From a virus, in the IMG/VR virus record IMGVR_UViG_3300023174_000038, positions 124,001 to 188,000 of that record: DNA of 64,000 nucleotides; one strand, 5' to 3'. The translations under genes and the position numbers were made by a program. Within the stretch, counting starts at the first letter, position 1; each line of letters begins with the position of its first letter. The notes under the pieces were generated by a model. It made no database searches. It had not been told where the DNA came from and saw nothing but the letters and a program-made list of their open reading frames with translations. This document shows, piece by piece, positions 31,719 through 57,233 of this stretch.

Positions 31719-32564
31719 ATGAAACAAGAATTCTTTTTCTATAGTGGATTGCCAAGAGCCGGTGGAACAATGTTAGCTTCAGTAATGAATCAACATCCAG
31801 ACATGTATGTAAGCCCATTAAGTCCAACTGTAGAGTTACTATATTACACAGAGAAATACTTTGATGAAGGTAGTGAAGCATATAACGCTAATCCACAACC
31901 AGTAGCTAAACAAAGTGTTTTAGAATCACTGCCCAGAGAGTATTACAAGAATATACCTAAGAAGTATATTATGGATAATAATCGTGCATGGCCTAACAAT
32001 ACTGATAGAATTTGTAAATTTATTACTAAAACTCCAAAGATTGTATGTATTGTTAGAGATGTACCATCTATCTTAGCTAGTTTTATTGATTTAGTTAATC
32101 GTAGCAATAATCCAGGAAATAACTTTATTGATCGTTGGTTAGTAGACAATCGTATGGAATTGAACACTAAGAACAGATGTTATTATTTGATGCAACCAAC
32201 TGGTATTGTGAACCAGAGTTTATGGAGTATGTATCAGGGTTATAGTAATCCAAATGTAAAATCCTGTATGCATATGGTAGAGTATGATGATTTGATTAGT
32301 AATCCGGAAGAAACATTGAGTGATATTATTGATTTTTTAGATATTCCATCGTATAAGTTTGTTTTTAACAATATTAAGAATGTAACACCCGTAGATGATG
32401 TAACTTACAATTTAGAAGGTATGCATAGTGTACGTCCTAAGTTAGCTAGTAGAAACTTAGATCCTATGGAAATATTAGGTCCTGAATTAGTTAGAGAGTA
32501 TTCTGGATTAGAATATTGGAGAGAAGTTGTAAAACCGAGCAAAGTCAAGCTGTTTAGTATATAA
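31719..32564 (+). CDS. Sulfotransferase family protein, 281 aa
   Basis: Predicted to move a sulfonate group from PAPS to an acceptor. FYSGLPRAGGTML (residues ~7-19) is the 5'-phosphosulfate-binding loop typical of sulfotransferases. VCIVRDVPSILASF resembles the 3'-phosphate-binding segment (RDP-like) and VEYDDLISNPEETL the conserved Y-D-L-x-x-x-P-E motif. Length is normal for the family. It sits beside a glycosyltransferase and upstream of an APS-kinase-like gene (41469), so the phage may supply both PAPS and the transferase. The acceptor is unknown. Confidence 0.82.
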   Translation: MKQEFFFYSGLPRAGGTMLASVMNQHPDMYVSPLSPTVELLYYTEKYFDEGSEAYNANPQPVAKQSVLESLPREYYKNIPKKYIMDNNRAWPNNTDRICKFITKTPKIVCIVRDVPSILASFIDLVNRSNNPGNNFIDRWLVDNRMELNTKNRCYYLMQPTGIVNQSLWSMYQGYSNPNVKSCMHMVEYDDLISNPEETLSDIIDFLDIPSYKFVFNNIKNVTPVDDVTYNLEGMHSVRPKLASRNLDPMEILGPELVREYSGLEYWREVVKPSKVKLFSI

Positions 32565-32568
32565 TATT

Positions 32569-32576
32569 GATAAATA
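32569..32576 (+). promoter_or_regulatory. Late promoter (GATAAATA)
   Basis: GATAAATA, 21 nt upstream of ATG 32598, with a GAGAGAG ribosome-binding site in between. It probably drives the first propeller-like gene. Confidence 0.55.
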
Positions 32577-32597
32577 TACTAAAGAGAGAGAGATATT

Positions 32598-33569
32598 ATG
32601 CCAGTAACGATAACAGCGGGAATTACATTTAGTGGGGGTGGATTGACTATGGCCTTTGCACCACCCTCAGGACCAACAGCAGGTTGGTTTGGTAGCGGGA
32701 TAACTTCGGGGGTAACGGTATCATTAGTAAATAGAATAACATATGCAATTGATACGGCGACAGCTAGTGTGCGCGGTCCGCTAAGTTTAGGGAGAAAAGG
32801 ATTAGTTGCTACCGGTAATCTTGATTATGGTTGGTTTGGTGGAGGTACTATAGCAGCTGGTAGTGGCGTTCTTGTAACTCTAGTTGATCGCATTATATAT
32901 GCGACAGATACCGCTACTGCAGGCGTTCGCGGCCCATTAAGTACAGCTAGAGGATATTTAGGCGCAACAGGTAATACAACTGATGGTTGGTTTGGGGGAG
33001 GTGCTGCCACCTCCCCCTTCGTATATTATTCAACTGTAGACCGCATCACTTATGCAACTGATACTGCAACAGCAACTACACGTGGACCGTTGAGTTCAGC
33101 AAGAGTCAATGTGATTGCAACGGGCAATACAACTAATGGATGGTGGGCAGGCGGCTACGCAGGTAGCCCAACTCCCGCAGGATTCCGGTCTACTATAGAT
33201 CGTGTAACATTTTCAACTGACACTGCAACCGCTAGTGTTCGTGGTCCATTAAATAATACAAATGGGAGAATGGCTGCAACCGGTACTCCAACTGACGGAT
33301 GGTTTGGCGGCGGCTATAGAGGCTCTATCGTAGAACGAGTAACATTTTCAACAGATACGGCGACAGCTAGTGTTCGCGGTCCGTTAAGTTCAGGAAGAAG
33401 CTATTTGGCGGCATCAACCGATAGTACAACATATGGTTGGTTTGGTGGCGGTGGATCAATTTCTACAGTAGACCGAATAACATATGCTACAGACACTGCA
33501 ACTGCAACTGCACGTGGACCGTTGAGTTCAGCAAGAAGCTACTTGGCAGCAACCTCAGGTGTCCAATAA
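32598..33569 (+). CDS. Six-repeat propeller-like virion protein, 323 aa (paralogue 1)
   Basis: The start MPVTITAGITFSGGG belongs to the shared N-terminal module. Six repeats of ~45-53 residues follow, each of the form GWFGGG...STVDRITYATDTATAxxRGPLSxARxxLAATGNTT. This resembles kelch/galactose-oxidase-type blades, so six repeats would make one closed beta-propeller. It ends LAATSGVQ. Five close paralogues lie downstream (33585, 37584, 38553, 39513, 40473). A ligand-binding virion protein is likely by context. GAGAGAGAG precedes the ATG. Confidence 0.7.
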   Translation: MPVTITAGITFSGGGLTMAFAPPSGPTAGWFGSGITSGVTVSLVNRITYAIDTATASVRGPLSLGRKGLVATGNLDYGWFGGGTIAAGSGVLVTLVDRIIYATDTATAGVRGPLSTARGYLGATGNTTDGWFGGGAATSPFVYYSTVDRITYATDTATATTRGPLSSARVNVIATGNTTNGWWAGGYAGSPTPAGFRSTIDRVTFSTDTATASVRGPLNNTNGRMAATGTPTDGWFGGGYRGSIVERVTFSTDTATASVRGPLSSGRSYLAASTDSTTYGWFGGGGSISTVDRITYATDTATATARGPLSSARSYLAATSGVQ

Positions 33570-33584
33570 TAGAAAGAATATCTA

Positions 33585-34598
33585 ATGCCAGTAACAATAA
33601 CAGGTGGAGTAACAATTACAGGGACCGGTGTCACAATGTTTGGTCCAGCCCCGGGCCCGGCTCCAGTATCTACAGCAGGATGGTTTGGTGGTGGATATGC
33701 TCCTGGAGCAGGTCCTGGAGCAGGAAACTATTCTACAGTAACTAGACTTACTTTTGCAACAGATACCGCAACAGCTACAGTTCGTGGACCATTAAGTTTG
33801 GCTAGATATGGATTCGCTGGATCAGGTACTTCAACTAATGGCTGGTTTAGTGGTGGACAAACATCTACATTAGAATCAACTATTGACCGTATAACTTATT
33901 CAAATGATACAGCTACTGCAAGTGTACGTGGACCATTAAGTTCAGCTAGAAGATATGCTTCTTCGGTAAGTGATAACTCAACTTATAGTTGGGTTAGCGG
34001 AGGAATAGATATATCTTTACCGAGCGTATATTCATCACAGGTAGCTCGCATAATTTATGCCACAGATACTGCTACTACAACTAACCGAGGACCATTAAGT
34101 ATAGCTAGATATGCAATTACTAGTATTGGTACTACTCAATATGGATGGAATATGGCAGGATATGAGGTGAATGGGTTTGTATCTACAGTTGACCGTATAA
34201 CTTATTCAAATGACACAGCTACAGCAAGTGTACGTGGTCCATTAACCGGTGGCAAATATAAAGCATCAACATTAACTGATAGTACTACATATGGTTGGTA
34301 TGCAGGTGGAACTAGCGGCTTCCCACTTTCAATAGTTAACCGTATCACATATGCAACAGATACAACTACCGCAAGTACACGAGGTTTTTTATCTGTGCCA
34401 AGAAGTAACTCAGCTGGCGTATATGACAATACAGCTGGGTGGGTTGGAGCTGGCCTAGCCAATGGCGGACCTCTTCCTACAGTATTATCATCAAGTATTG
34501 ATAGAATAATTTATGCTACTGATACCGCTACTGCAACCTCTAGAGGTTCAGTAGGCACAGCTAGAGCATATCCCGGCAGTTCATCTGGCGTACAATAA
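33585..34598 (+). CDS. Six-repeat propeller-like virion protein, 337 aa (paralogue 2)
   Basis: It starts MPVTITGGVTITGTG and has six repeats of the GWFGGG...DRITYSNDTATASVRGPLS type, more diverged than its paralogues (repeat 3 has YSWVSGG, repeat 4 YGWNMAG, repeat 6 AGWVGAG). Divergence lies mainly in the loops after the GG, where a propeller would bind ligand. It ends in SSSGVQ. It is separated from paralogue 1 by a short conserved spacer with tandem stop codons (TAATAG), and the next gene begins 4 nt after its stop. Confidence 0.7.
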   Translation: MPVTITGGVTITGTGVTMFGPAPGPAPVSTAGWFGGGYAPGAGPGAGNYSTVTRLTFATDTATATVRGPLSLARYGFAGSGTSTNGWFSGGQTSTLESTIDRITYSNDTATASVRGPLSSARRYASSVSDNSTYSWVSGGIDISLPSVYSSQVARIIYATDTATTTNRGPLSIARYAITSIGTTQYGWNMAGYEVNGFVSTVDRITYSNDTATASVRGPLTGGKYKASTLTDSTTYGWYAGGTSGFPLSIVNRITYATDTTTASTRGFLSVPRSNSAGVYDNTAGWVGAGLANGGPLPTVLSSSIDRIIYATDTATATSRGSVGTARAYPGSSSGVQ

Positions 34599-34601
34599 AA
34601 C

Positions 34602-36419
34602 ATGATCTCAGGCGCTACCCAATCAGGGTTTCACTTTCTACAACAACATATCAATTTCTCGTCTGATACTTCAGTAGATTTTGACCCGCATAAACTAATC
34701 AATAGCAATAAACAAATAAAGATATTATGGGCACACTATGCTCACGATCAACCAATCTTTTTAAACGTAGATTGGACTAAAATAACACATATAGTATGTG
34801 TAAGTAATTGGCAAAAAACTCAATTCATTAAGTATTTTAAGATACCACAACATAAAATATCTGTAATACGTAACGGTGGTGCAGACTATTTTACATATAA
34901 ACAAAAAACAAACAAAACTCTTATATACGCTAGTACACCATTTCGTGGACTAAAATATCTACCCTATATCTTTAAACAAGTACTAAAATGTCATCCAGAC
35001 GCCATTCTTAAAGTATTCTCGGGTATGAAACTGTACGGAGATAATGATACACAAGAGTTCAAACAAATATACAATGAACTAAAAAACACACCAAATACAA
35101 TCTACAGTGAACCAATTAGTCATCAACAACTAGCTAATGAGTTTAAAGAAGCATCAGTATTAGTTTATCCAAATATATGGGAAGAAACAAGCTGTGTAAC
35201 ATTGATTGAAGCAATGCGTTCAGGATGTTACCCAATATTAAGTGATATAGGTGCATTGCCCGAAACAAGTAATGGTTATGGGACTATTGTTCCATTAGAT
35301 GCAACATATCATGCAAGTGGATGGATACCAAGTGTACAGTTTTTAGATGATTTTGTAGATAATATTTGCCAAGTACTATCACAAACTAAATATACTCATA
35401 CTAAAGAGCAGGCTGAGTGGGCTTGTGAATACTATAACTGGAACACTATTGCTATTGAATGGCATACATTACTAAACAAACTATCAACAAAAGGATCAAC
35501 AATGAAAAAGAAAATGGAAATCTCTAGTCTAACATCACATACAGGTGATAAAATTGTACATGATGAAAAAGTACTATCACAAGTATTTGATGAAATCTTC
35601 CGCTGGGAAGAAGCAGATAAAGAACATGCTCAAGGACGTAGCAACTTCCAAATTGAAAAGTTTATCACATTAGATAACTATACAATTCCAAGTGCTTTCA
35701 ATGCTATGTTGAAGAATCGTAGAATTATGGCAGAAGGATTATTCAGCAAGATTACTGAGATGAAAGAACATCAACGTGAGTTTGATTATAAGTGGAATAA
35801 GAAAAACAAAGAAGAACCAATTCAATGGCCAACTAAAGATGGTGGCACTAAGTTGTGCTGGTATGATTTAGATTACTTAAATCTACAAAATTTCTTAAAG
35901 AGTAGTGAGTTAGAGATCCGTGATCGGGTACAACAGATTGCTACGTTTGATAAGATACTAGATAGATTAGTAGAACAGAATGGTGGTCCAATCACACGTG
36001 AACAGTTTGAGAATGAAGATCATGTATATTGGGAACGTAGATTAGCTAACCAAGCTATGGATGAGATGATTAGTCGTAACACTGGTATTGGTGTTGGTAA
36101 CATTCACAGTATGCGTAGAGCCAGTGCTCCTACATTAATTTCTGGTGATGTAAATCGTGTTAAGAATGATTTCCCTGATTTAGGTAAAGCATTGACTGGT
36201 GGCGAACATAGTGTAGAGTTCTTATTAGAGTTGCAAAAGAAAGTTGTTGCTGGTATTGAAGAAGTAACTAGTAGTGATATACTAGCATTAGCTAATGAAA
36301 AGGTTACAGAGCGTATTGGCATTACTGAACGGTTAGACAGAATGCATGAGAAACCGGCACAAGGTAAATCAGAAGTATCACCAAAGAGTTTGTTTAATGA
36401 CAAATGGAATAGTAAATGA
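34602..36419 (+). CDS. Glycosyltransferase (GT4-like) fused to an unknown helical domain, 605 aa
   Basis: Residues ~20-290 look like a GT-B retaining glycosyltransferase: HIVCVSNWQK, ISVIRNGG, LIYASTPFRG and the E-x7-E signature in EETSCVTLIEAMRSG. From Met301 the protein changes to a charged, helical region (EISSLTSHTGDKIVHDE...) with no sugar-transferase features, which resembles a stand-alone phage protein. Met301 (35502) is preceded by AAGGA, so the second half may also be made separately as a 305-residue product. The 3' end overlaps the next oxygenase gene by 4 nt. Sugar and acceptor are unknown. Confidence 0.72.
   Translation: MISGATQSGFHFLQQHINFSSDTSVDFDPHKLINSNKQIKILWAHYAHDQPIFLNVDWTKITHIVCVSNWQKTQFIKYFKIPQHKISVIRNGGADYFTYKQKTNKTLIYASTPFRGLKYLPYIFKQVLKCHPDAILKVFSGMKLYGDNDTQEFKQIYNELKNTPNTIYSEPISHQQLANEFKEASVLVYPNIWEETSCVTLIEAMRSGCYPILSDIGALPETSNGYGTIVPLDATYHASGWIPSVQFLDDFVDNICQVLSQTKYTHTKEQAEWACEYYNWNTIAIEWHTLLNKLSTKGSTMKKKMEISSLTSHTGDKIVHDEKVLSQVFDEIFRWEEADKEHAQGRSNFQIEKFITLDNYTIPSAFNAMLKNRRIMAEGLFSKITEMKEHQREFDYKWNKKNKEEPIQWPTKDGGTKLCWYDLDYLNLQNFLKSSELEIRDRVQQIATFDKILDRLVEQNGGPITREQFENEDHVYWERRLANQAMDEMISRNTGIGVGNIHSMRRASAPTLISGDVNRVKNDFPDLGKALTGGEHSVEFLLELQKKVVAGIEEVTSSDILALANEKVTERIGITERLDRMHEKPAQGKSEVSPKSLFNDKWNSK
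35491..35504 (+). promoter_or_regulatory. Possible internal ribosome-binding site and start
   Basis: AAGGATCAACAATG: a Shine-Dalgarno-like AAGGA six nt before an in-frame ATG, exactly at the junction of the glycosyltransferase and the C-terminal domain. It could give a separate 305-residue protein (35502-36419). Confidence 0.5.
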
Positions 36420-37123
36420 AAAACAATTTATTAACTAACATATTAATTGCACCCAATGTAATATCAAAAGAGGGTGTAGCTTTTATTATGGAGCATGCCA
36501 AGAGTCAACGAAAAGAAGATTTATCTGTATTTGATCCAGAACAAAGTAACAAAAGTGGCAACACCAAATTTAGTGTAGACAAGAAGGTTAGAGATACACA
36601 GATGATTGACCTAGAAGATATTGCTAGTGAGATTATTGATTTGTTTCGTAATGTTGTAACCAATGTTATTAATCCATTTTATGAGTTTGAGGTTAAAGAT
36701 TCTGAGTTGCCACAACTATTACATTATGGTGTAGATGGGCATTATATGCCGCATTGTGATGGTGAGTCACTATGGAAGCCACCTGGTAATGAGCCATTGA
36801 TTTGGCGTAAGAGTACTGATAGAGATTTAAGTACAGTATTGTTTTTGAATGATGATTTTGAAGGTGGGGATTTTGTATTCCCTGAATTAAAAGTAAGAGT
36901 TCGCCCAGAGCCGGGTATGTTAGTTTGTTTCCCTTCTACACATGAGTATTTGCATGGAGTTGAGCCAGTTACTAAAGGAACTAGATATAGTATTGTAAAT
37001 TGGATGACAGTTAAGGGTTTTCCAAGTATGGCAGACGAAACTAATATGATTAATCATAAATACAATATAGGTATTGATAAGCCTATATCTAATAAAAAGG
37101 AAAAAACATGGCTAAGTACATAA
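36416..37123 (+). CDS. 2OG-Fe(II) oxygenase, prolyl-hydroxylase-like, 235 aa
   Basis: A predicted Fe(II)/2-oxoglutarate hydroxylase of the prolyl-4-hydroxylase type. HYMPHCDGES gives the HxD metal ligands (His113, Asp115), EYLHGVEPV the distal His180, and TKGTRYSIVNW Arg190 for 2-oxoglutarate. FLNDDFEGGDFVFPE is the usual central segment. The ATG overlaps the stop of the glycosyltransferase fusion (ATGA), implying co-translation. T4-like aquatic phages often carry such genes; targets are unknown. Fibre or structural proteins are candidates. Confidence 0.82.
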   Translation: MKNNLLTNILIAPNVISKEGVAFIMEHAKSQRKEDLSVFDPEQSNKSGNTKFSVDKKVRDTQMIDLEDIASEIIDLFRNVVTNVINPFYEFEVKDSELPQLLHYGVDGHYMPHCDGESLWKPPGNEPLIWRKSTDRDLSTVLFLNDDFEGGDFVFPELKVRVRPEPGMLVCFPSTHEYLHGVEPVTKGTRYSIVNWMTVKGFPSMADETNMINHKYNIGIDKPISNKKEKTWLST

Positions 37124-37521
37124 AGCATTATTACGTAGATGGTGAGAATTTAGTAGAGTTCTTTGTTGATAAGAACATGGGACCAAACGGTAAGACACAT
37201 CCAAGAATTGACGGATTAGATGTTAAGTTTTGGTTTGTAGACACTAATGGTATTGATTACTGTATGAGTGTAGTACCAGATGAGACTGTTATTACTCCAG
37301 AAAATGGCTTGGGTGAGGGTACATATGAGCAGTGGTCCAATGAAATTGCTGGTCAATTTGAGTCACAGAGAGCAAGTGTAGCTAGCAATAGTGATATGTT
37401 GACACGATTGAGTAAGACTGAAGCTGAAGTATTAGCTATGGCTTTTGACAATAGTAGTGTTGAGTCAATGTTAGCTAGTTTTGCACAATTAGCACCCACT
37501 CCAGAAGTATTAGGCAGTTGA
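37108..37521 (+). CDS. Conserved phage protein of unknown function, 137 aa
   Basis: It starts MAKYIKHYYVDGENLVEFF, has a beta-rich N-terminal half (FWFVDTNGIDYCMSVVPDE) and a helical C-terminal half (DMLTRLSKTEAEVLAMAFDN). AAAAGGAAAAAAC precedes ATG 37108, which overlaps the end of the oxygenase gene by 16 nt. It resembles small uncharacterised proteins of T4-like aquatic phages, but no function is known. It closes the enzyme block between the two propeller clusters. Confidence 0.65.
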   Translation: MAKYIKHYYVDGENLVEFFVDKNMGPNGKTHPRIDGLDVKFWFVDTNGIDYCMSVVPDETVITPENGLGEGTYEQWSNEIAGQFESQRASVASNSDMLTRLSKTEAEVLAMAFDNSSVESMLASFAQLAPTPEVLGS

Positions 37522-37542
37522 TCCTTAAGCCATATTAGAAGT

Positions 37543-37568
37543 TATAAATAGTGTGATAAATACACTAT
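37543..37568 (+). promoter_or_regulatory. Two late-promoter octamers with an overlapping hairpin
   Basis: TATAAATA (37543-37550) and GATAAATA (37555-37562) lie in tandem. ATAGTGT (37548-37554) and ACACTAT (37562-37568) form a perfect 7-bp inverted repeat with the second octamer mostly in the loop. The next gene starts at 37584. Confidence 0.55.
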
Positions 37569-37583
37569 GATAAAGGTAAATAT

Positions 37584-38537
37584 ATGGCGATTGAGATAGG
37601 ACCAGGTTGGACGATAGGTGGTGGAATAACAGTTTCCAGTCCACCTTCTGCTCCTACAGTAGCAACAGCAGGCTGGTTTGTAGGTGGTACAGGTGGTGGC
37701 GCCGGCATTACCACTGTAAATAGAGTAACATTTGCAAATGACACAGCAACAGCAAGTGTTCGAGGTCCACTAAGTGTAGCCTTAAATGGGGGAGCAGGCA
37801 CCGGTAATACGACTTATGGTTGGTTTGGTGGCAGTTCCCTTAGTTCAGTGTATCAATCAACGGTCCAACGAATCACATATGCAACTGATTCAGCAACTGC
37901 AAGTGTGCGTGGTCCATTAAGTACAGCTAGAGGATATTTAGCCGCAACCGGTAACACAACTGATGGTTGGTTTGCTGATGGATTTGGTAGCATATCAATA
38001 GTAGACCGTATTACATATGCATCTGATACAGCAACTGCAAGTGTGCGCGGCCCCTTAAACTTGGGGGTATATGCCTTAGCCGCTACCGGCGATAGCACTA
38101 ATGGTTGGTTTGGCGGCGGAAGTGGAACTAGTGCAATACAACGTATCACCTATGCAACAGATACAGCCACTGGAACTATACGAGGGGCATTAAGCGGTAC
38201 AATAAGAGGTTTGGCGGCATCAACTGATAGCACTACATATGGCTGGTTTGGCGGAGGATACCAAACTATTGCACCTGTTTGGGCATCATTAGTTCAACGT
38301 ATTACTTATGCAACTGATACAGCCGCAGTAAGTGTTCGTGGTCCATTAAGTGCAGGAAGATTTTATTTAGCGGCATGCGGTAATACAACTGATGGTTGGT
38401 TTGGTTCAGGATACACACCTGCAGCAGTGTCATTAATAGATAGAATTACCTATGCAACAGATACAGCAACAGCCAGTGTGCGTGGTCCGTTAAGTTTAAG
38501 CACCTACTATCTCTCAGCGGCAGCAGGGACACAATAA
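37584..38537 (+). CDS. Six-repeat propeller-like virion protein, 317 aa (paralogue 3)
   Basis: It starts MAIEIGPGWTIGGG, a diverged form of the shared N-terminal module, and carries six repeats beginning AGWFVGG, YGWFGGS, DGWFADG, NGWFGGG, YGWFGGG and DGWFGSG. It first-in-line opens the second cluster of four paralogues. AAAGGTAAATAT precedes the ATG. Tandem late promoters lie 21 and 33 nt upstream. Probable beta-propeller adhesin; ligand unknown. Confidence 0.7.
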   Translation: MAIEIGPGWTIGGGITVSSPPSAPTVATAGWFVGGTGGGAGITTVNRVTFANDTATASVRGPLSVALNGGAGTGNTTYGWFGGSSLSSVYQSTVQRITYATDSATASVRGPLSTARGYLAATGNTTDGWFADGFGSISIVDRITYASDTATASVRGPLNLGVYALAATGDSTNGWFGGGSGTSAIQRITYATDTATGTIRGALSGTIRGLAASTDSTTYGWFGGGYQTIAPVWASLVQRITYATDTAAVSVRGPLSAGRFYLAACGNTTDGWFGSGYTPAAVSLIDRITYATDTATASVRGPLSLSTYYLSAAAGTQ

Positions 38538-38552
38538 TAGAAAGAATAATAT
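38531..38552 (+). repeat. Conserved spacer between propeller genes
   Basis: A spacer with tandem stops and AGAAAGAATAATAT, ending at ATG 38553, recurs nearly identically at 40451-40472 and, slightly altered, at about 33563-33584. It suggests that the propeller genes duplicated together with their leader. Confidence 0.7.
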
Positions 38553-39494
38553 ATGTCAGTAACATTTAGTGGTGGAATAACATTTACAGGTGGAGGGTTT
38601 AGTTTCACTGCCGCACCTCCGGTTGGTGCTACAGCTGGTTGGTTTGGTGGTGGTATACCAACGTATAGCACAGTACAACGTATGACATTTGCAACAGATA
38701 CTAGTGCTACTAGTATACGAGGCCCACTTAGTTCCGGCAGATACGGTCTATCGGGTGCCGGTACTCTCACAAATGGTTGGTTTGGCGGCGGCGCCACACC
38801 CGCATTATTATCAACAGTAGACCGAGTAACATATGCAACTGACACAGCAACTGCTAGTGTACGTGGTCCATTAACTGTTGCAAGAATGCAACTAGGAGCA
38901 TCAACTGATAGTACTACTTACGGTTGGTTTGGTGCGGGATATCTTGGATATCCGACTACTCTATCTACAGTAGACCGAATAACATATGCCACTGATACAG
39001 CAACAGCAATTAGTCGAGGGCCGGTACATCAGGCACTTGGGGTAGCGGCTACGGGTACAACTGCATATGGTTGGTTTGGTGGAGGTTATAAATACCCTAC
39101 TGGAAGCATGTCAACCATAAGCCGTATTGATTATTCAAGTGATGCATCAACTGCTAGTGTGCGCGGCCCATTAAGTGTGGCAAGGTTCCTGACCGGGGCT
39201 ACAGGTAATGATACTAATGGCTGGTTTGCTGGTGGGCAAGGTACCGTTGTAGATAGAATTACATATGCAACAGATACTGCAACAGCTAGTGTGCGTGGAC
39301 CATTAAATAGTCCGACACGTGAAGGTATAGCTGGTGTTGGTAATACTACAAACGGTTGGTTTGCCGGTGGCTTTAATACTAGTACTATAAACCGTATTAC
39401 ATATGCAACTGATACTGCGACGGCAAGCCTAACCGGTACTTTAAGTGAATACTTTCAAATTACAAAAGTCGGCGGCACCTCCGGTCAACAATAA
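38553..39494 (+). CDS. Six-repeat propeller-like virion protein, 313 aa (paralogue 4)
   Basis: It starts MSVTFSGGITFTGGG, followed by six blades opening AGWFGGG, NGWFGGG, YGWFGAG, YGWFGGG, NGWFAGG and NGWFAGG. Each blade contains DRITYATDTATASVRGPL or a variant. The last blade is shortened and altered (ASLTGTLSEYFQITKVGG), and the protein ends GTSGQQ. It is the third of the longest run of paralogues when counted from 37584. Predicted to be a virion adhesin by similarity among the six copies and by context only. Confidence 0.7.
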   Translation: MSVTFSGGITFTGGGFSFTAAPPVGATAGWFGGGIPTYSTVQRMTFATDTSATSIRGPLSSGRYGLSGAGTLTNGWFGGGATPALLSTVDRVTYATDTATASVRGPLTVARMQLGASTDSTTYGWFGAGYLGYPTTLSTVDRITYATDTATAISRGPVHQALGVAATGTTAYGWFGGGYKYPTGSMSTISRIDYSSDASTASVRGPLSVARFLTGATGNDTNGWFAGGQGTVVDRITYATDTATASVRGPLNSPTREGIAGVGNTTNGWFAGGFNTSTINRITYATDTATASLTGTLSEYFQITKVGGTSGQQ

Positions 39495-39512
39495 CATAAA
39501 GGTTTAAAAAGA

Positions 39513-40457
39513 ATGAGTATAACAATAACTGGCGGATTTACAATGGCAGGCGGTGGATTTACACTGGTAGCTGCACCTCCATCTGATCCTACTGCTAGTT
39601 GGGTTGCCGGCGGAGTAGCTAGTGGAGTTGATATATCTACTGTGCAACGTATCACCTATGCAACAGATACAGCTACTGCAACTATACGTGGTTCATTAAA
39701 TTTAGCAAGAGATAGATTTGCGGCAACAGGTAATACAACTGATGGTTGGTTTGGCGGCGGAGCTTACCCTGCAAATTCTACAATACAACGAATAACATAC
39801 GCAACAGATACCGCAACAGCATCAGTGCGTGGCCCCTTAAGTTCAGCTAGATATAATTTGGGAGCAAGCGGTAATACAACTAATGGTTGGTTTGGCGGCG
39901 GTACTGATTACCCCGGAGTTTCTACAGTAGACCGTGTCACTTACTCAACAGATACAATAACCGCAAGTATACGTGGTCCATTAAGTTTGGCCCGCATTAC
40001 CCCGGCTGCAGCCGGTAATACAACTGATGGTTGGTTTGGTGGAGGAGCAACTGGAGCAACAGTGGTGTCAACAGTAGATCGCATTACATACGCTACAGAT
40101 ACAGCAACAGCAAGTGTACGTGGTCCACTAAGTTTAGCCCGCAAACAGGCTGCAGCCGCAGGTAATACAACGTACGGATGGTATGCTGGTGGCTATGCCG
40201 GCGGCTCGGTTGGTGGACTAGTGGATCGTATAACATATGCAACAGATACCGCAACCGCATCGGTACGTGGGCCGGTATATGATTCTTATCAAATAGCAGC
40301 ATCTGGAAATTCAACGTACGGATGGTTTGCTGGCGGTAGTGGTGACCTATCAACAGTACAACGTATCACTTATTCAAATGATACTGTTGCGGCAACTCCG
40401 CGTGGTCCATTAAGTGTAGGCGCCACAGGACAAGCGGCTGCATCAGGCGTACAATAA
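39513..40457 (+). CDS. Six-repeat propeller-like virion protein, 314 aa (paralogue 5)
   Basis: It starts MSITITGGFTMAGGG. Six repeats open ASWVAGG, DGWFGGG, NGWFGGG, DGWFGGG, YGWYAGG and YGWFAGG. Most differences from paralogue 4 are in the variable loop after the GG and in the outer strand after RGPLS, the pattern expected when a scaffold is kept and binding loops vary. AAAGGTTTAAAAAG is the leader here, not the spacer used by its neighbours. It ends in SGVQ. Confidence 0.7.
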   Translation: MSITITGGFTMAGGGFTLVAAPPSDPTASWVAGGVASGVDISTVQRITYATDTATATIRGSLNLARDRFAATGNTTDGWFGGGAYPANSTIQRITYATDTATASVRGPLSSARYNLGASGNTTNGWFGGGTDYPGVSTVDRVTYSTDTITASIRGPLSLARITPAAAGNTTDGWFGGGATGATVVSTVDRITYATDTATASVRGPLSLARKQAAAAGNTTYGWYAGGYAGGSVGGLVDRITYATDTATASVRGPVYDSYQIAASGNSTYGWFAGGSGDLSTVQRITYSNDTVAATPRGPLSVGATGQAAASGVQ

Positions 40458-40472
40458 TAGAAAGAATAATAT

Positions 40473-41414
40473 ATGTCAATAACAATAACAACGGGTGGAA
40501 TAACAATGACTGGTGGAGGTGTAAGCTTTAGTGCCGCACCACCCTCCACACCAACAGCCAGTTGGGTAGCCGGCGGAGGAAATATATTATCAACGGTAGA
40601 TCGTATTACATATGCTACTGATACTGCTACTGCAAGTGTGCGTGGCCCTCTTAGTTGGGCAACTAACAAACAGGCAGCTACTGGTAATTTGACTTATGGT
40701 TGGTGGGCCGGCGGATTTGATGGTGTTGCTCCTACTGATTTTGCAAGTACAGTACAACGAATTACATATGCCACAGATACTGCTGCCTCAAGTATTCGCG
40801 GTCCAATAAATTCAGAAAAAACTATGTTGGCTGCTGCAGGAACCACAGATTATGGATGGTTTGCCGGTGGAGCTTTGTATGTACAAACAGAACAATCAAC
40901 AGTAGATCGTATAACATATGCAACTGATACAGCAACTGCATCATTACGTGGTACAATAAGTTTAGCTAGATACTATTTGGGCGGAACATCAGATGGTAGT
41001 ACGTATGGATGGTTTGGTGGTGGTTATGCACCTTATAGAAGTAGGGTGGATCGTATAACATATGCAACAGATACAGCAACTGCTAGTGTACGTGGTCCAT
41101 TAAATATATCTATAATAATACCGGCAGCAACAGGTAATACAACTAATGGTTGGTGGGGAGGCGGATATGCTTCCGGTGCTTCAACAGCAGTATATCGTGT
41201 AACTTATGCAACCGATACAAATACAGCAAGTGTTCGTGGACCATTAAGTCAATCTGTGGGTACTGCATCAGGAAACTTGTCTTATGGTTGGTTTATGGGT
41301 GCTATTAACGTAGATAGAATTGATTATTCAAATGATACTGCTACTGCAAGTTTGCGTGGACAACTAGCAACAAATAGATCTACTTATGGTGCATCAGCTT
41401 CGGGTGTACAATAA
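40473..41414 (+). CDS. Six-repeat propeller-like virion protein, 313 aa (paralogue 6)
   Basis: It starts MSITITTGGITMTGGG. Six repeats open ASWVAGG, YGWWAGG, YGWFAGG, YGWFGGG, NGWWGGG and YGWFMGA; the last blade lacks the usual loop and goes directly to NVDRIDYSND. It ends ASGVQ. This last copy of the second cluster is followed by a late promoter and the APS-kinase fusion gene. Its role is inferred as for its paralogues. Confidence 0.7.
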   Translation: MSITITTGGITMTGGGVSFSAAPPSTPTASWVAGGGNILSTVDRITYATDTATASVRGPLSWATNKQAATGNLTYGWWAGGFDGVAPTDFASTVQRITYATDTAASSIRGPINSEKTMLAAAGTTDYGWFAGGALYVQTEQSTVDRITYATDTATASLRGTISLARYYLGGTSDGSTYGWFGGGYAPYRSRVDRITYATDTATASVRGPLNISIIIPAATGNTTNGWWGGGYASGASTAVYRVTYATDTNTASVRGPLSQSVGTASGNLSYGWFMGAINVDRIDYSNDTATASLRGQLATNRSTYGASASGVQ

Positions 41415-41438
41415 AATATACGGGTAAGCTATCTCTAC

Positions 41439-41446
41439 TATAAATA
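41439..41446 (+). promoter_or_regulatory. Late promoter (TATAAATA)
   Basis: An exact T4 late octamer 22 nt before ATG 41469, with AGGAG between them. Confidence 0.7.
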
Positions 41447-41468
41447 TTTTTATATCAGGAGATAAAAC

Positions 41469-42260
41469 ATGACACAACGTATTCTTATTATGGGCTTGCC
41501 CGGCGCAGGCAAAACTTATTTGGCACAACACTTACTTGGGCATCTACAAACGGCTAATAAACGAGTAGCTTGGCTTAACGCAGACGATGTCCGTAAAAAA
41601 TATAACGACTGGGACTTCAGTAAAGAAGGTCGCATTCGTCAAAGTCTACGTATGCGTGAACTAGCAGATAACATGACTGACACTGACTACGTTATATGCG
41701 ATTTTGTTGCACCATTGGTTGAAATGCGTAATAACTTTAAAGCTGATTGGACTATCTGGGTTGATACTATCAGTGAAGGTAGATACGAAGATACTAATAA
41801 AGCATTCGTCCCACCAGAAGTATATGACTTCCGTATCACAGAACAAAATAGTGAAAAATGGAGTGAGTTCATCTTTGCACATATATACGATAATAGACGT
41901 AGACCAACATTCAATTGGCAAAAAGAAACGGTACAGATGCTAGGAAGGTGGCAACCATGGCATGATGGTCATCGTGCATTGTTTGAACGTGCTATTGCTA
42001 AAACAGGACAAGTAATTATTCAAATACGTGACTGTCAAGGCTGGCAAGGTAGTAACCCATTTGAAATAGAAAAGGTCAAATCATTCATTAAACGTGATTT
42101 GGACATGTTATATCAAGGTCAATATGAAATTCAAGTTGTACCAAATATCACTAACATTACTTATGGGCGTGATGTTGGTTATAAAATTGAACAAGAAACA
42201 TTTGACGAAAAAATTCATGCTATAAGTGCCACAAGTATACGTAAAATGTTAGGATTATAA
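41469..42260 (+). CDS. APS kinase-like / nucleotidyltransferase fusion, 263 aa
   Basis: Residues 1-~125 match adenylylsulfate kinase (CysC): P-loop GLPGAGKT (9-16), NADDVRKKY, a DFVAP segment and WVDTISEGRYEDTNKAF. This enzyme makes PAPS from APS and ATP. Residues ~155-263 are a second domain of the HxGH nucleotidyltransferase fold, with GRWQPWHDGH (159-168) and ISATSIRKM (252-260). The order, kinase then transferase, is that of animal PAPS synthetase. However, the C-terminal domain is only ~110 residues and its motifs are closer to NMN-adenylyltransferase or cytidylyltransferases than to ATP sulfurylase. It probably supplies PAPS to the sulfotransferase at 31719. The second activity is open. 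Confidence 0.78.
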   Translation: MTQRILIMGLPGAGKTYLAQHLLGHLQTANKRVAWLNADDVRKKYNDWDFSKEGRIRQSLRMRELADNMTDTDYVICDFVAPLVEMRNNFKADWTIWVDTISEGRYEDTNKAFVPPEVYDFRITEQNSEKWSEFIFAHIYDNRRRPTFNWQKETVQMLGRWQPWHDGHRALFERAIAKTGQVIIQIRDCQGWQGSNPFEIEKVKSFIKRDLDMLYQGQYEIQVVPNITNITYGRDVGYKIEQETFDEKIHAISATSIRKMLGL

Positions 42261-42734: not shown

Positions 42735-44207
42735 ATGAAAATATACGTCACCAAAAGAGATGGGACAAAAGAGCCATTAATGTTAGAAAAATGGCAAGCG
42801 CAAGTAGCAAAAATATGTGTGGGGATACCTGATGTTAGCCCTTCAATGGTAGAGATAAAATCACAACTACACTTCTATGATGGAATTTCAACACAAGAAA
42901 TTGATGGAATTACATTACGTGCAGTTGTTGATTTGATTGACGTAGAAAACAATCCAGATGTAGGACATACAAACTATCAATATGTAGCAGGTAAACAACG
43001 TCTATCAATGTTACGTAAAGATGTATATGGTAACTACGAGCCTCCCCGTCTGTATGATATCGTAGTAACTAATGTAGCTACAGGATTATATACACCAGAA
43101 TTACTAGAATGGTATAGTGAAGAAGATTGGAACAAGATGGATGACATGCTTGACCATTCTAAGGACGAGCAATATAGTTATGCCGCCATTGAACAATTGA
43201 TTGAAAAATATCTAGTAAAGAATAGATCAACAAAACAAACATATGAAACACCTCAAGTTAGATACATGGTTGCAGCCGCTACAGTTTTTCATAAAGAAGA
43301 ACCTAATAGTGCCCGTATGCGTTATATTAAAGAATATTATAATGCAGCCAGTGATGGGTTGTTTACTCTTGCTACTCCTGTGCTTGCAGGCTTGGGTACT
43401 CCAACAAAGCAATTTTCATCCTGTGTTCTTATTCGCTCCGACGACGATTTGGATAGTATTTTTGCTAGCGGAGAAATGATGGCAAAATATGCTAGTAAAC
43501 GTGCTGGCATTGGTTTAGAAATAGGAAGACTACGACCATTAGGCAGTCCTATTCGTGGTGGTGAGATTATGCATACAGGCATGATCCCATTCTTAAAGAA
43601 ATGGTTTGGTGACTTAAGAAGTTGCAGTCAAGGAGGTATTCGTAATGCAAGTGCTACAGTATTTTATCCCATTTGGCATCATCAGTTTGATGACCTTATC
43701 GTACTTAAAAACAATCAAGGAACAGACGAAACTAGAGTCAGGTTCATGGACTATGGGGTTGTTCTTAGTGCATTCTTCTGGAGACGATTTAAAAACAAAG
43801 AACAAATAACATTCTTTGATCCCAATGAAGTGCCTGACTTATATGAAGCATTTTACAAAAACACAGAACTATTTGAAGAACTATATGTAAAATACGAAAA
43901 ACGTAAAGACTTACGAAAGAAAACAATGTCGGCCGAAGAAGTATTCAAGTCGGGCATTCTTAAAGAACGAACAGATACAGGACGTATCTACCTAGTGTTC
44001 GTTGATAATGTTATGAATCAAGGACCATTTGATCCTGAATATCATACAATTTACCAGTCAAATTTATGTTGCGAGATCCTTTTGCCCACCAAGAGTTTCA
44101 AGAGAATGAATCCGGAACGCAAGTTAATTCGTGTCAAGAAATCTAATGTTGACGAGTTTATGAAAACGAAATCAAACGACATTGTTAACATTAGGAAGAT
44201 AAAATAG
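42735..44207 (+). CDS. nrdA: Ribonucleotide reductase alpha subunit, N-terminal piece, 490 aa
   Basis: First part of class I NDP reductase. Residues ~1-90 form an ATP-cone-like regulatory region. FSSCVLI gives Cys230 (E. coli Cys225). SNLCCEILLPT (442-452) gives Asn443, Cys445 and Glu447, matching E. coli Asn437, radical Cys439 and Glu441. Homology stops near residue 461; 462-490 is an unrelated basic tail ending in two consecutive TAG codons. The remaining part, with the Cys462 equivalent, is encoded at 45840-46856 after an endonuclease and three small genes. The pieces most likely assemble as two polypeptides, as known for the split NrdA of phage Aeh1. Confidence 0.88.
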   Translation: MKIYVTKRDGTKEPLMLEKWQAQVAKICVGIPDVSPSMVEIKSQLHFYDGISTQEIDGITLRAVVDLIDVENNPDVGHTNYQYVAGKQRLSMLRKDVYGNYEPPRLYDIVVTNVATGLYTPELLEWYSEEDWNKMDDMLDHSKDEQYSYAAIEQLIEKYLVKNRSTKQTYETPQVRYMVAAATVFHKEEPNSARMRYIKEYYNAASDGLFTLATPVLAGLGTPTKQFSSCVLIRSDDDLDSIFASGEMMAKYASKRAGIGLEIGRLRPLGSPIRGGEIMHTGMIPFLKKWFGDLRSCSQGGIRNASATVFYPIWHHQFDDLIVLKNNQGTDETRVRFMDYGVVLSAFFWRRFKNKEQITFFDPNEVPDLYEAFYKNTELFEELYVKYEKRKDLRKKTMSAEEVFKSGILKERTDTGRIYLVFVDNVMNQGPFDPEYHTIYQSNLCCEILLPTKSFKRMNPERKLIRVKKSNVDEFMKTKSNDIVNIRKIK

Positions 44208-44254: not shown

Positions 44255-45079
44255 ATGAAGAAATACATTATCTATTGTCATACACTAAATGGTAAGAAAT
44301 ACATAGGTTATACAAGTAAAACGATGGAAGAACGATTGCAGGATCATATTGGAGAAGCATTAGAAGGAAGTGATAGACATTTCCATCGTGCTATCAAAAA
44401 GTATGGGTCTGAAAATATTGTCTCAGAAATCTTAGCAGAAGTATACAATAAAGACGAAGCCAAAAAGTTAGAAGAAACTTTCGTTGAAAAGTTAGATACT
44501 TTCAAAAATGGCTATAATATGACTCGCGGCGGTGATGGTGGCAACACTCTTGAAAAATATACAGACGAAAAGATGAAAGAGCATCGTAAATTGAAATCTT
44601 ATAACGCTGTTGGAATGAACAATGGCAACGCAAAGCCTAATATTACCAAAGAAATGATAGTAGATGCTGTAGTTCAATTTTGTATTGAGAACAATAAACA
44701 AGGCGATTATTTGTTAAGAAAAGAGATTGAATCGATCCTCAAAGAGCAATTGGGCGTTAGTCAAATGATATTAAAGAATAGAATTGATAATGGGCTAAAA
44801 CAGTTAATTGATGAAGTAAACAAGAAGTTATCTACCCCTGTAAAATATGATCCATACTATAGAGGTGAGGATCATAAGAAGCGGTTAGCATCGGCAACAT
44901 CAAAGTTGCGCTGGGCGACAAATGGTATTGATAATGTAAAACTACCGGCAGATGAATTGGATAAATTTCTCAAAGAAAACCCAACATATAAACAAGGTAG
45001 AAAATTGAAGAATAGTGAAGATAGAAAAGAAATTAAATCAAAGTTGGGTTATAGTAGAATAGGATTAGGGAATGTATGA
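44255..45079 (+). CDS. GIY-YIG homing endonuclease, 274 aa
   Basis: The catalytic domain is at residues ~1-95: YIIYCHTLNGKKYIGYT is the GIY-YIG motif, followed by EERLQDHIGEA, a HRAIKKYG segment and EETFVEKLDTFKNGYNMTRGG. The C-terminal half is basic and helical, suiting DNA binding. It separates the two halves of nrdA and has its own late promoter. Endonucleases of this type cut phage genomes lacking the insert and so spread their own gene. The stop overlaps the next ATG by 4 nt. It could instead be called a Seg-like endonuclease. Confidence 0.85.
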   Translation: MKKYIIYCHTLNGKKYIGYTSKTMEERLQDHIGEALEGSDRHFHRAIKKYGSENIVSEILAEVYNKDEAKKLEETFVEKLDTFKNGYNMTRGGDGGNTLEKYTDEKMKEHRKLKSYNAVGMNNGNAKPNITKEMIVDAVVQFCIENNKQGDYLLRKEIESILKEQLGVSQMILKNRIDNGLKQLIDEVNKKLSTPVKYDPYYRGEDHKKRLASATSKLRWATNGIDNVKLPADELDKFLKENPTYKQGRKLKNSEDRKEIKSKLGYSRIGLGNV

Positions 45080-45574: not shown

Positions 45575-45843
45575 TTGATTATTACCAAGCACTAAGAGAA
45601 ATGCACCAGGGCAATGTAGTTAAATATGTTGGCACGGTAAATGGAAATGTAATGAGCGACAAGGGTGCTAGTTTCTGTATGTGCCGTGGTTGTATCTTTT
45701 TATTCGACAACGGTGTAATCAAATGGAACAAGTTGGGATATATGGTTTACGACCCAGACTATCGTTATGAGCTAACTGGAGAGACAGTTGATCCAAGGGC
45801 ATGGAAACCAGAAGAGACAAAAAAGCAAAAGGATAAAGAATGA
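45571..45843 (+). CDS. Small phage protein inside split nrdA, 90 aa
   Basis: It starts MIDYYQALREMHQGN. The middle is beta-rich with CMCRGCIFLF, and the C-terminus is charged (KPEETKKQKDKE). The ATG overlaps the previous stop by 4 nt, and its own stop overlaps the start of the nrdA 3' piece (ATGA), so all four inserted genes and nrdA-b form one overlapping chain. Unknown function; similar small proteins are frequent in aquatic T4-like phages. Confidence 0.58.
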   Translation: MIDYYQALREMHQGNVVKYVGTVNGNVMSDKGASFCMCRGCIFLFDNGVIKWNKLGYMVYDPDYRYELTGETVDPRAWKPEETKKQKDKE

Positions 45844-46856
45844 ACAAGTTATACGAAGAAATAGAATATCTACCCGAAGAGTTAGATGACGAATATGAAT
45901 ACTATGAAATTGACGAAGCGGAGGGACGAATCGCTTTATGTACGCTGGGATCTATTAACTGGGGTGCGTTCCGTAATCCTGAAGACATGCGCCGTGCTTG
46001 TCGCATATTGCATCGTAGCCTCAATAACATTCTTGACTATCAAGATTTTCTATCCATTCAATCTAAACTATCAAACGATGAAATCAGACCTCTTGGAATT
46101 GGAATCACTAATCTTGCCTACTGGCACGCCAAGCGAAGTCTTAAGTACGGAGAGAAAGACTCCTTGGCTGAAGTCAAGACGTGGATGGAACACTTATCCT
46201 TCTACTTAACTGAAGCAAGTGTAGAACTAGCACAAGAACGCGGTCGTTGTGAACATAGCGATAAAACACGTTATGGTCAAGGCATCTTCCCCTGGGAACT
46301 ACGTGCTAAAGGTGTAAACGAATTAACTAACTTTGATCCAGAACTTAATTGGGAAGGACTACGTGCTATGATGCGTAGTCATGGTGTCCGTAATGCTACG
46401 CAAATGGCTGTTGCTCCTGTAGAATCAAGTAGTGTAGTTATTAATAGCACTAATGGTATTGAAATGCCAATGAGTTTGATAAGTGTTAAAGAAAGTAAAG
46501 CAGGAAGTTTTGTACAAGTTGTTCCAGAATATCATAAGTTGAAAAACAAATATCAATTGATGTGGGATCAAAAAGATTGTGATGGTTATCTAAAAACAGC
46601 GGCAGTGATTGCAGCCTATGTTGACCAAAGCATAAGTACTAATACGTTTTATAATCCAGCACATTTCCCTGAGCGTAAAGTCCCAACAACATTGATTGCT
46701 AAGAACTTAATGCAGGCACACTATTATGGTATCAAGACCTTCTATTATAGCTTGATTAACAAAGCAGGTAGTAAGAGCCAAGATGAAACTGTATTAGATT
46801 TACCAAGTGGCTTTAATGATATGGATGAAGAAGATTGCGAGGCTTGTAAATTATAA
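45840..46856 (+). CDS. nrdA: Ribonucleotide reductase alpha subunit, C-terminal piece, 338 aa
   Basis: Second part of class I NDP reductase. IALCTLGSIN gives Cys34, equivalent to E. coli Cys462, the partner of Cys225. TFYYS near residue 308 holds the Tyr pair of the radical pathway (E. coli Tyr730-Tyr731), and the C-terminal CEAC is the redox-active tail pair reduced by glutaredoxin. The first ~25 residues are an acidic tail (EEIEYLPEELDDEYEYY) probably acquired at the split; it could pair with the basic tail of the N-terminal piece. AAGGATAAAGA precedes the ATG. It must associate with the 42735-44207 product to form an active site. Confidence 0.87.
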   Translation: MNKLYEEIEYLPEELDDEYEYYEIDEAEGRIALCTLGSINWGAFRNPEDMRRACRILHRSLNNILDYQDFLSIQSKLSNDEIRPLGIGITNLAYWHAKRSLKYGEKDSLAEVKTWMEHLSFYLTEASVELAQERGRCEHSDKTRYGQGIFPWELRAKGVNELTNFDPELNWEGLRAMMRSHGVRNATQMAVAPVESSSVVINSTNGIEMPMSLISVKESKAGSFVQVVPEYHKLKNKYQLMWDQKDCDGYLKTAAVIAAYVDQSISTNTFYNPAHFPERKVPTTLIAKNLMQAHYYGIKTFYYSLINKAGSKSQDETVLDLPSGFNDMDEEDCEACKL

Positions 46857-47563
46857 TGAACTATCAAAAAATATATAATAATTTAATAGAGCGTTCAAAA
46901 AACCGATTAGTTGAAGGATATAGTGAAAAACATCACATTATCCCTCGCTGCCTAGGTGGAACAAATGAAAAAGAAAATATTACTCGGTTAACTGCGGAAG
47001 AACACTATTTGGCTCATCAACTTCTTGTTAAGATGTATCCTAACAATTTTAAACTAATTCGTGCAATGCATATGATGACAGTTAATAGTAATTATACTAT
47101 AAGAAACAATAAATCATTTGGTTGGATTCGCAGACAAAACGCCATTGCAATGTCGGTAAGTATGAAGGTATATCAAAAAGAAAACGGTCACCCAAGAGGT
47201 ATGGCAGGTAAAACTAATACAATAGCGTCTAACATTAAACGCTCGGGTAGTATGAAGGGTATACCGTGCCCAAGTCGCGGTGTAAGAGGGCCGAGAGGAT
47301 CACGGGCATCCCCGCTAAAAGTAGTATGTCGGTTAGATAATAGAAAAGAGTTAGATATGGCAAATTTTATGGCATACTGCAAGAGATTAGATAATCCTGC
47401 AAAAGCAATAGAACAAGATGCTAATCGTTCAAAAGCAACAAAAGGTATTCCAAAACCGCAAGAAAAAGTTAAATGTCCGCATTGTCTATTAATCGGCGGA
47501 GCAAATATTATGAAGCATCATCATTTTGATAATTGTAAAGAAAAGAAAGAAGAACATGTCTAA
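46856..47563 (+). CDS. HNH homing endonuclease, 235 aa
   Basis: KHHIIPRCLGGTNEKENI (residues ~25-42) followed by EEHYLAHQLL is an HNH nuclease core. The middle is basic and Gly/Arg-rich. The C-terminus has a Cys4/His-type finger, KCPHC...KHHHFDNC, like that of the reverse-strand endonuclease at 48899. It sits exactly between nrdA-b and nrdB, its start overlapping the nrdA-b stop (TAATG) and its end overlapping the nrdB start by 8 nt, so insertion left both neighbours intact. Confidence 0.82.
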   Translation: MNYQKIYNNLIERSKNRLVEGYSEKHHIIPRCLGGTNEKENITRLTAEEHYLAHQLLVKMYPNNFKLIRAMHMMTVNSNYTIRNNKSFGWIRRQNAIAMSVSMKVYQKENGHPRGMAGKTNTIASNIKRSGSMKGIPCPSRGVRGPRGSRASPLKVVCRLDNRKELDMANFMAYCKRLDNPAKAIEQDANRSKATKGIPKPQEKVKCPHCLLIGGANIMKHHHFDNCKEKKEEHV

Positions 47564-56118: not shown

Positions 56119-56694
56119 ATGAAAACAGTCGGAGATAAATTAACAGCATTTGCAATTACAGGTGTCAAACCAGGACAACCAGAAGATGCATACTTCACAA
56201 TTACAGAGAAATCATTTGAAGGTAAGTGGAAAGTAATCGTTTACTATCCAAAAGACTTTACATTTGTATGTCCTACAGAAATTGTAGCCTATGACAAGTT
56301 GACTACGGACTTTGCTGACCGTGATGCAGTATTGCTCACAGGATCAACAGACAATGAGTTCTGTAAGACTGCTTGGCAAAAAGCACATCCTGACTTAGCA
56401 AAGATTAGTCATACTCAGTTTGCTGACACACAACGCCGTAGCAGTGAGTATAATGAAGACACCGGACGCTATGAAAACTTCAGTCTGATTGAACAATTAG
56501 GTGTATTCTATGCCCCCGCTGGTGCGGCACTACGTGCAACATTTATTGTTGATCCACAAAATGTTATTCAACATATTACAGTTAACAACTTAGATGTTGG
56601 TCGTAACCCAGAAGAAACATTGCGTGTATTAGATGCATTACAAACTGGCGAACTATGTCCATGTAATCGTGCTATCGGTGGAGAAACACTATAA
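56119..56694 (+). CDS. ahpC: Alkyl hydroperoxide reductase C-type peroxiredoxin, 191 aa
   Basis: Reduces organic peroxides and H2O2. FTFVCPTEI gives the peroxidatic Cys51 and GELCPCNR the C-terminal Cys180/Cys182. A double C-terminal cysteine of this kind is characteristic of the mycobacterial-type AhpC, which is regenerated by AhpD rather than AhpF. The next gene is indeed an AhpD-like protein, overlapping it by one base (TAATG). Expression is from a late promoter with a hairpin leader and a strong ribosome-binding site, so it likely protects late infection. Confidence 0.9.
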   Translation: MKTVGDKLTAFAITGVKPGQPEDAYFTITEKSFEGKWKVIVYYPKDFTFVCPTEIVAYDKLTTDFADRDAVLLTGSTDNEFCKTAWQKAHPDLAKISHTQFADTQRRSSEYNEDTGRYENFSLIEQLGVFYAPAGAALRATFIVDPQNVIQHITVNNLDVGRNPEETLRVLDALQTGELCPCNRAIGGETL

Positions 56695-57233
56695 TGAATC
56701 CAATCACCTTAAATGGTGATTGGGTACAATCTGTAAAAGATAGTATTCCAGATCACTCTAAAGACATTAAACTAAACATTGATGCAGTTATTAATCGTTC
56801 AGGATTAGATCCAGTTGATACACATGCTATTGCTTATGTATCAGCATTAGCCGCAGGCAATGGTGGTTTAGCATTTGAGATTGAGCATAACAGTCCATTG
56901 TTTAGTAACGAAGCAGAGCGTGAAGCCGCAAAGACAGCCGCAAGTTTGATGGGTCAAAACAATATTTGGTATCCATTTACTGAGATGGCTAATGACGAAT
57001 CAATGAAGGGTTTACCAGCTAGTTTGCGTATGAATGCTTATGCAACTCACGGTGGTGTATCTAAGAAGAAATTTGAAATGTATTCATTAGCCGCAAGTAT
57101 TATTGGTAAATGTCATTTCTGTGTGAAAGCACATTATGATACATTAAAGAAAGAAGGCATGACTACACAAGAGTTGATGGCTATTGGCCGTATTGCTGCC
57201 GTAGTTAATGCTATAGGTAAAGTATCTATTTAA
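56694..57233 (+). CDS. ahpD: AhpD-like alkylhydroperoxidase, 179 aa
   Basis: A carboxymuconolactone-decarboxylase-fold redox protein that reduces AhpC. Glu128, Cys140-x2-Cys143 and His147 match the spacing of M. tuberculosis AhpD (Glu118, Cys130, Cys133, His137). The histidine that sits just before the second Cys in that enzyme is Phe142 here, with His at 141 instead, so proton relay may differ. Length is nearly the same as in bacteria. Its start overlaps the AhpC stop by one base, supporting a working pair. Confidence 0.85.
   Translation: MNPITLNGDWVQSVKDSIPDHSKDIKLNIDAVINRSGLDPVDTHAIAYVSALAAGNGGLAFEIEHNSPLFSNEAEREAAKTAASLMGQNNIWYPFTEMANDESMKGLPASLRMNAYATHGGVSKKKFEMYSLAASIIGKCHFCVKAHYDTLKKEGMTTQELMAIGRIAAVVNAIGKVSI

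Follow-up and report, generated by a model that had tools for sequence, protein, structure and literature searches.

Where does a phage that carries its own sulfotransferase find the activated sulfate that such an enzyme consumes? Sulfotransferases have been reported in marine phages, and their function in phage genomes "remains unclear" (PMC10580990). The question is raised here by a window of 64,000 nucleotides, positions 124001-188000 of the 349-kb virus record G000 (IMG/VR IMGVR_UViG_3300023174_000038), in which a sulfotransferase gene is accompanied by a gene that joins a kinase domain to a nucleotidyltransferase domain. The answer proposed, to which we assign about three chances in four, is that this fusion is a minimal, non-orthologous synthetase of 3'-phosphoadenylyl sulfate (PAPS) that feeds sulfotransferases. 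The features concerned are the following, in window positions.

31719..32564, + strand: sulfotransferase, 281 residues, presumed PAPS user (PF13469, PF00685, phrog_27463)
41469..42260, + strand: kinase-nucleotidyltransferase fusion, 263 residues, proposed minimal PAPS synthetase (open reading frame, phrog_10255, AlphaFold2 model)
41469..41900, + strand: domain like adenylyl sulfate (APS) kinase, residues 1-144 (PF01583 and structural match)
41493..41516, + strand: P-loop GLPGAGKT, residues 9-16 (alignment A3)
41913..42257, + strand: nucleotidyltransferase domain, residues 149-263, proposed mini ATP sulfurylase (AlphaFold2, fold match)
41943..41972, + strand: HxGH motif GRWQPWHDGH, residues 159-168, nucleotide-binding (62 sequences)
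42165..42182, + strand: GRDVGY motif, residues 233-238 (conservation; compare GRDHAG of ATP sulfurylase)
42222..42242, + strand: ISATSIR motif, residues 252-258 (conservation; compare ISGTELR of ATP sulfurylase)

Both genes are open reading frames (ORFs) of the same strand. The first-pass annotation had called the one at 31719 a sulfotransferase, and the profiles agree: the gene product matches Sulfotransfer_3 (PF13469) with 48.8 bits against a cut-off of 27, Sulfotransfer_1 (PF00685) with 35.7 against 22, and phrog_27463 with 250 bits. Its top match in the PDB is protein-tyrosine sulfotransferase 1 (E 1e-4), and the 5' PAPS-binding loop is present as SGLPRAGGT (alignment A7). The fusion lies 8.9 kb away, a spacing that chance would give in roughly 5% of cases; a single distance is thus only mildly unusual, and the case against chance has to come from the homologues. 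Neither a second sulfotransferase nor a second fusion was found in the 349-kb record, which was checked up to its last 0.7 kb.

What kind of kinase is fused? The APS-kinase-like character first suggested for the protein at 41469 is borne out. Pfam APS_kinase (PF01583) covers residues 5-92 with 45.6 bits (cut-off 21.1), and the whole protein is matched by phrog_10255, named "kinase", with 173 bits. The AlphaFold2 model, built with 50 homologues, reaches a mean pLDDT (predicted local distance difference test) of 92, and in it residues 1-144 have the APS-kinase fold: the closest structure is APS kinase 7yq0 (Z 19.3, root-mean-square deviation (rmsd) 2.1 over 143 aligned residues), the best 30 structural matches (Z 19.3 to 16.0) are APS kinases or PAPS synthetases throughout, followed by gluconate kinase at Z 15.3. 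The likeness to CysC extends to the DxxR, DFS..GR and FVAP elements. Features kept from the E. coli enzyme include the P-loop, the Asp and Arg of DGDNVR, the Phe of GFS and the Arg of DR, as well as FxxP and a Phe or Tyr at the FTG position; the lid KGLYKKARAGE, by contrast, is deleted, and the kinase half falls below the NCBIfam apsK equivalog cut-off (36.0 versus 138.7 bits). In alignment A3 the P-loop is invariant or nearly so apart from A13 and T16, and across 53 divergent homologues this loop, GRWQPWHDGH, GRDVGY and ISATSIR are mostly invariant or nearly so.

And what is the second domain? It has about 110 residues and, modelled alone, a mean pLDDT of 89. Its fold is that of the HxGH superfamily; phosphopantetheine adenylyltransferase (PPAT, Z 10.4) and nicotinamide mononucleotide (NMN) adenylyltransferase (NMNAT, Z 9.6) are tied, and the fold search does not separate PPAT, NMNAT and ATP sulfurylase from each other. 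Among 62 sequences G, R, Q, P, H, G and H of the first motif are invariant, as are G, R, V and G of GRDVGY and S, T and R of ISATSIR. The HxGH and ISxTxIR motifs are both of the NMNAT type, and the nearest profile match in the PDB is archaeal NMNAT (E 5.6e-9), so that the first-pass annotation was right by sequence in seeing an NMN-adenylyltransferase-like domain here. The models for such enzymes match only weakly, with scores of 23.7 bits for TIGR01527 (cut-off 181.2) and 25.6 for PRK01153 (cut-off 127), and the fusion does not reach the cut-off of the NadR model TIGR01526 either (14.4 versus 341 bits). In addition, the HMMER alignment with the NMNAT MJ0541 skips about 25 residues, from strand 3 to the C-terminal motif, a stretch that may bear on the nicotinamide-binding segment. 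The ATP sulfurylase family PF01747 is absent among the 25 best Pfam matches of the fusion; a true ATP sulfurylase, that of locus L246, has QTRNPLHRAH, GRDHAG and ISGTELR. The nucleotidyltransferase looks derived from NMNAT-like stock and not from classical ATP sulfurylase.

Put together, the two halves suggest a short route. The C-terminal HxGH domain would join sulfate to ATP, giving APS and pyrophosphate; the N-terminal domain would turn APS into PAPS by phosphorylating its 3'-OH; and the phage-encoded sulfotransferase, here 31719-32564, would use PAPS to sulfate an acceptor, for which the virion proteins or host glycans of the first-pass annotation are hypothetical candidates. Such a protein resembles animal PAPSS1/2 in its order, with an APS-kinase domain first and an HxGH-type nucleotidyltransferase second, and in its link to sulfotransferases; the earlier remark on this order and on the tiny second domain is supported. 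The differences are equally plain. Human PAPSS1 aligns across both domains, but its domains are arranged differently, which raises the rmsd to about 20. Compared with the bifunctional PAPS synthetases (PAPSS1/2, Sat-CysC, CysN-CysC), the fusion has 263 residues instead of about 600, a shortened kinase lid, a small NMNAT-like nucleotidyltransferase with neither a PF01747 match nor QTRN, and in many bacteria its halves are separate genes. With Sat it shares HxxH, GRD and ISxTxxR motifs, while a sequence-level match, the N-terminal PUA-like domain and the conserved QTRN are missing. With archaeal NadM and with NadR it shares GRFQPxHxGH, IS[AG]TxIR and the fold; it differs from them in being about 25 residues shorter, in its GRD motif and in its sulfation context. 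The order of NadR, moreover, is NMNAT and then nicotinamide riboside kinase, the reverse of the fusion with its N-terminal kinase of APS-kinase type.

A phage-specific system, as first imagined, is not supported, since the pair of domains (hereafter the cassette, whether fused or in two genes) occurs widely among marine bacteria. In a genome scan the family turned up in SAR86 as well as in SAR11, SAR116 and further marine alphaproteobacteria. In SAR86 and many alphaproteobacteria each half has its own gene, and the two genes overlap by a few bases; other SAR11 and SAR116 genomes have the halves fused as in the phages, and in nearly all loci they are either fused or in tandem. Their neighbours recur. 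In SAR86 a sulfotransferase lies directly upstream of the cassette in 9 loci, mostly at about 15 bases, and that of L200 was verified with Pfam (E 3.9e-37). A SAR116 locus (L174) has a sulfotransferase 61 bases downstream, and in a SAR11 locus (L176) the downstream sulfotransferase overlaps the cassette. In a large related group of marine alphaproteobacteria the gene directly upstream is CysQ (285 bits, cut-off 228.8), and a CysQ homologue stands downstream in SAR86 locus L235. CysQ is the phosphatase of 3'-phosphoadenosine 5'-phosphate and is needed where PAPS is used.

Gene content across genomes points the same way. Out of 44 cassette genomes, 29 have a sulfotransferase over the cut-off, 4 have Sat, 2 have strong PF01507 (CysD/CysH) matches and 2 a full-length APS kinase, the cassette kinase being the only APS kinase in the other 42. 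The 116 genomes examined from the SAR86 order yielded no canonical APS kinase, the best match being a partial one of 37.6 bits; 67 of them hold both cassette and sulfotransferase, 4 the cassette only, 6 the sulfotransferase only and 39 neither (Fisher p 6e-20). In these marine bacteria the cassette, as two overlapping genes or as a fusion, would replace Sat or CysDN plus CysC. It is probable, in our judgement, that SAR86, like many SAR11-type and other marine bacteria without assimilatory sulfate reduction, obtains its PAPS mainly from a minimal PAPS synthetase in which a domain of about 110 residues, derived from NMNAT, has become an ATP sulfurylase, and that phages acquired the cassette, which together with the sulfotransferases they encode serves sulfation during infection.

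Do the phages themselves carry the same signature? More than 590 relatives of the fusion occur among IMG/VR contigs, and DLP_6 and isolated phages of the Casjensviridae have relatives that are 37-41% identical to it. A sulfotransferase lies at most 60 bases from the fusion in 16 of 159 phage loci (T4-like), mostly overlapping it, and representatives were confirmed with Pfam. Within 6 kb one is found in 25 of 132 non-redundant fusion loci, or 39 when two sulfotransferase-like families are included; as a control, the same models were run on 474 kb surrounding nrdB in related phages and gave no sulfotransferase. The random-placement test on phage records alone is weak (clustering p 0.014), as is the comparison of large fusion records, 5 of 30 with a sulfotransferase over the cut-off, with nrdB-chosen records, 0 of 20, two of which carry the fusion. 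In Casjensviridae the gene order is sulfotransferase-NADAR-fusion, and the sulfotransferase scores 26.2 bits with Sulfotransfer_4 (cut-off 22.8).

Other genes also recur near the phage fusions. A sulfotransferase-like P-loop family, A5 (GAPGSKWSS), adjoins A8, a family like 2-oxoglutarate (2OG) oxygenases with the motif RIHVQ..HID...PHSTAN, in 12 of 14 cases (e.g., L026, L050, L053, L116 and L144), and the pair may possibly hydroxylate and then sulfate. A second sulfotransferase-like family, A6 (GPQGSGNH), occurs near the fusion as well. Profile comparisons with sulfotransferases are suggestive only, both for A6 (E 1.8e-5 over 166 columns) and for A5 (E 1.8e-4 over 59 columns, with 1.7e-4 for a P-loop-only negative control). 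In up to 28 viral loci (e.g., L007 5508-5999) the gene of a CTP_transf_like protein of 163 residues immediately precedes the fusion or is close to it, and by motifs and length G000:269517-270008 is such a gene in the present phage. Some phages have a kinase-only second paralogue directly before the fusion (L099 5540-6004; L158 5102-5995).

Several observations weigh against the proposed function. By sequence the second domain is closer to NMN adenylyltransferase than to ATP sulfurylase, and the QTRN of the latter, presumably sulfate-binding, is replaced by GRWQ. Most fusion-bearing phages have no recognisable sulfotransferase within 6 kb, and in Casjensviridae the fusion adjoins NADAR (L084 8565-9008, between the sulfotransferase and the fusion), a family linked to ADP-ribose and nicotinamide adenine dinucleotide (NAD). 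The p-values for co-occurrence overstate the number of independent events, since the genomes are related. The cassette is rarer in SAR86 genomes with NadD (17 with both, 54 with the cassette only, 28 with NadD only, 17 with neither; p 7e-5). Finally, phmmer and tblastn searches of the complete SAR86 genome G039 (CP097973.1) with E. coli queries did not find nadA, nadC, nadD, nadE, nadR or pncB; nadK is present, and the HxGH enzymes found by motif are a CoaD-like one, a RibF-like one and the cassette only, which makes the cassette its only candidate NMNAT.

Could the fusion then be an inverted NadR, its kinase acting on nicotinamide riboside and its nucleotidyltransferase turning NMN into NAD, for NAD salvage or restoration? 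The archaeal NMNAT profile, the NADAR neighbour, the scarcity of NadD beside the cassette and the gene content of G039 all speak for it. Salvage had in fact been the first hypothesis, taken from the NADAR gene beside the fusion of a Stenotrophomonas phage, and it was demoted on account of the sulfotransferase and CysQ neighbours and of the sulfotransferase that precedes NADAR. Its difficulties are several: the kinase fold is that of APS kinase, the second domain scores far under the NMNAT equivalog cut-offs and misses a stretch of the NMNAT fold, and the sulfotransferase and CysQ neighbours would be left unexplained. The genome counts are also against it. The cassette follows sulfotransferases in SAR86-order genomes with NadD (17 with both, 0 with the cassette only, 2 with the sulfotransferase only, 26 with neither) and in those without (50, 4, 4 and 13), and among sulfotransferase-bearing genomes the effect of NadD on the cassette is gone (p 0.65). 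NadD and the cassette occur together in 17 genomes; in 13 genomes NadD, cassette and sulfotransferase are all absent, so that a genome lacking NadD need not have the cassette. Genome context therefore favours PAPS synthesis over NAD synthesis, and PAPS synthesis is the better explanation in view of the counts stratified by NadD, the APS-kinase fold and the sulfotransferase and CysQ neighbours repeated in distinct lineages. NAD salvage is unlikely, though the lack of any other candidate NMNAT in one complete SAR86 genome keeps it the main rival.

A donor of a different kind is also conceivable, in which the pair makes a 3'-phosphoadenylyl derivative of a non-sulfate group, e.g., a phosphonate or a phosphoramidate. 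APS kinase homologues acting on other nucleotides are known, the phosphoramidate pathway of Campylobacter, which uses one, offers an analogy, and the second domain does not keep the residues with which ATP sulfurylase binds sulfate. The recurrent neighbours, however, are bona fide sulfotransferases and CysQ and not other transferases, which leaves this idea improbable. It is likewise improbable that the kinase is an APS kinase supplied with APS by the host while the nucleotidyltransferase does an unrelated job: the lack of classical ATP sulfurylase signatures (PF01747 unmatched) would suit it, but with 40 of the 44 cassette genomes lacking Sat and strong CysD/CysH-type matches in just 2 there would be no source of APS, and the two domains are fused or in tandem almost everywhere.

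PAPS synthesis remains the preferred function of the fusion, and its surroundings in the window fit a role in decoration: a glycosyltransferase, a 2OG oxygenase and repeat-rich genes are found between the sulfotransferase and the fusion or next to them, and the first two, listed below, may be linked to sulfation.

34602..36419, + strand: glycosyltransferase group 1 domain protein, neighbour (PF00534, 37.0 bits)
36416..37123, + strand: 2OG-Fe(II) oxygenase, neighbour (PF13640, 60.9 bits)

Elsewhere in the window, a large ribonucleotide reductase gene appears, by reading, to be split into two ORFs (42735-44207 and 45840-46856), with a GIY-YIG-like homing endonuclease ORF between the parts (44255-45079) and an HNH-like ORF after the second (46856-47563). 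Two fatty acid desaturase genes lie near each other (59916-60674 and 61306-62079; PF00487, 62.6 and 55.6 bits). The minus strand encodes a radical SAM protein (58392-59861) that also shows weak similarity to B12-binding domains, unusual for a phage; 56119-57233 holds an ORF read as peroxiredoxin-like and then a gene like carboxymuconolactone decarboxylase/AhpD (PF02627); and a single ORF of 4990 residues fills 10833-25805.

SAR11 bacteria lack assimilatory sulfate reduction (PMC5069961), so that the source of PAPS in such cells is not obvious, and no description of the kinase-nucleotidyltransferase cassette was found in the open-licence literature. If the proposed function is true, it would suggest a further origin of ATP sulfurylase activity, from NMNAT-like stock, and a compact PAPS cassette common to marine bacteria and their phages would account for the phage sulfotransferases as well as for the PAPS of such cells; sulfated surface or virion molecules would be predicted. 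Phage sulfation gains a simple biochemical test through the cassette, which may give abundant ocean bacteria that have sulfotransferases, but lack any other known means of making PAPS, a route to sulfation that had been missing and had gone unrecognised.

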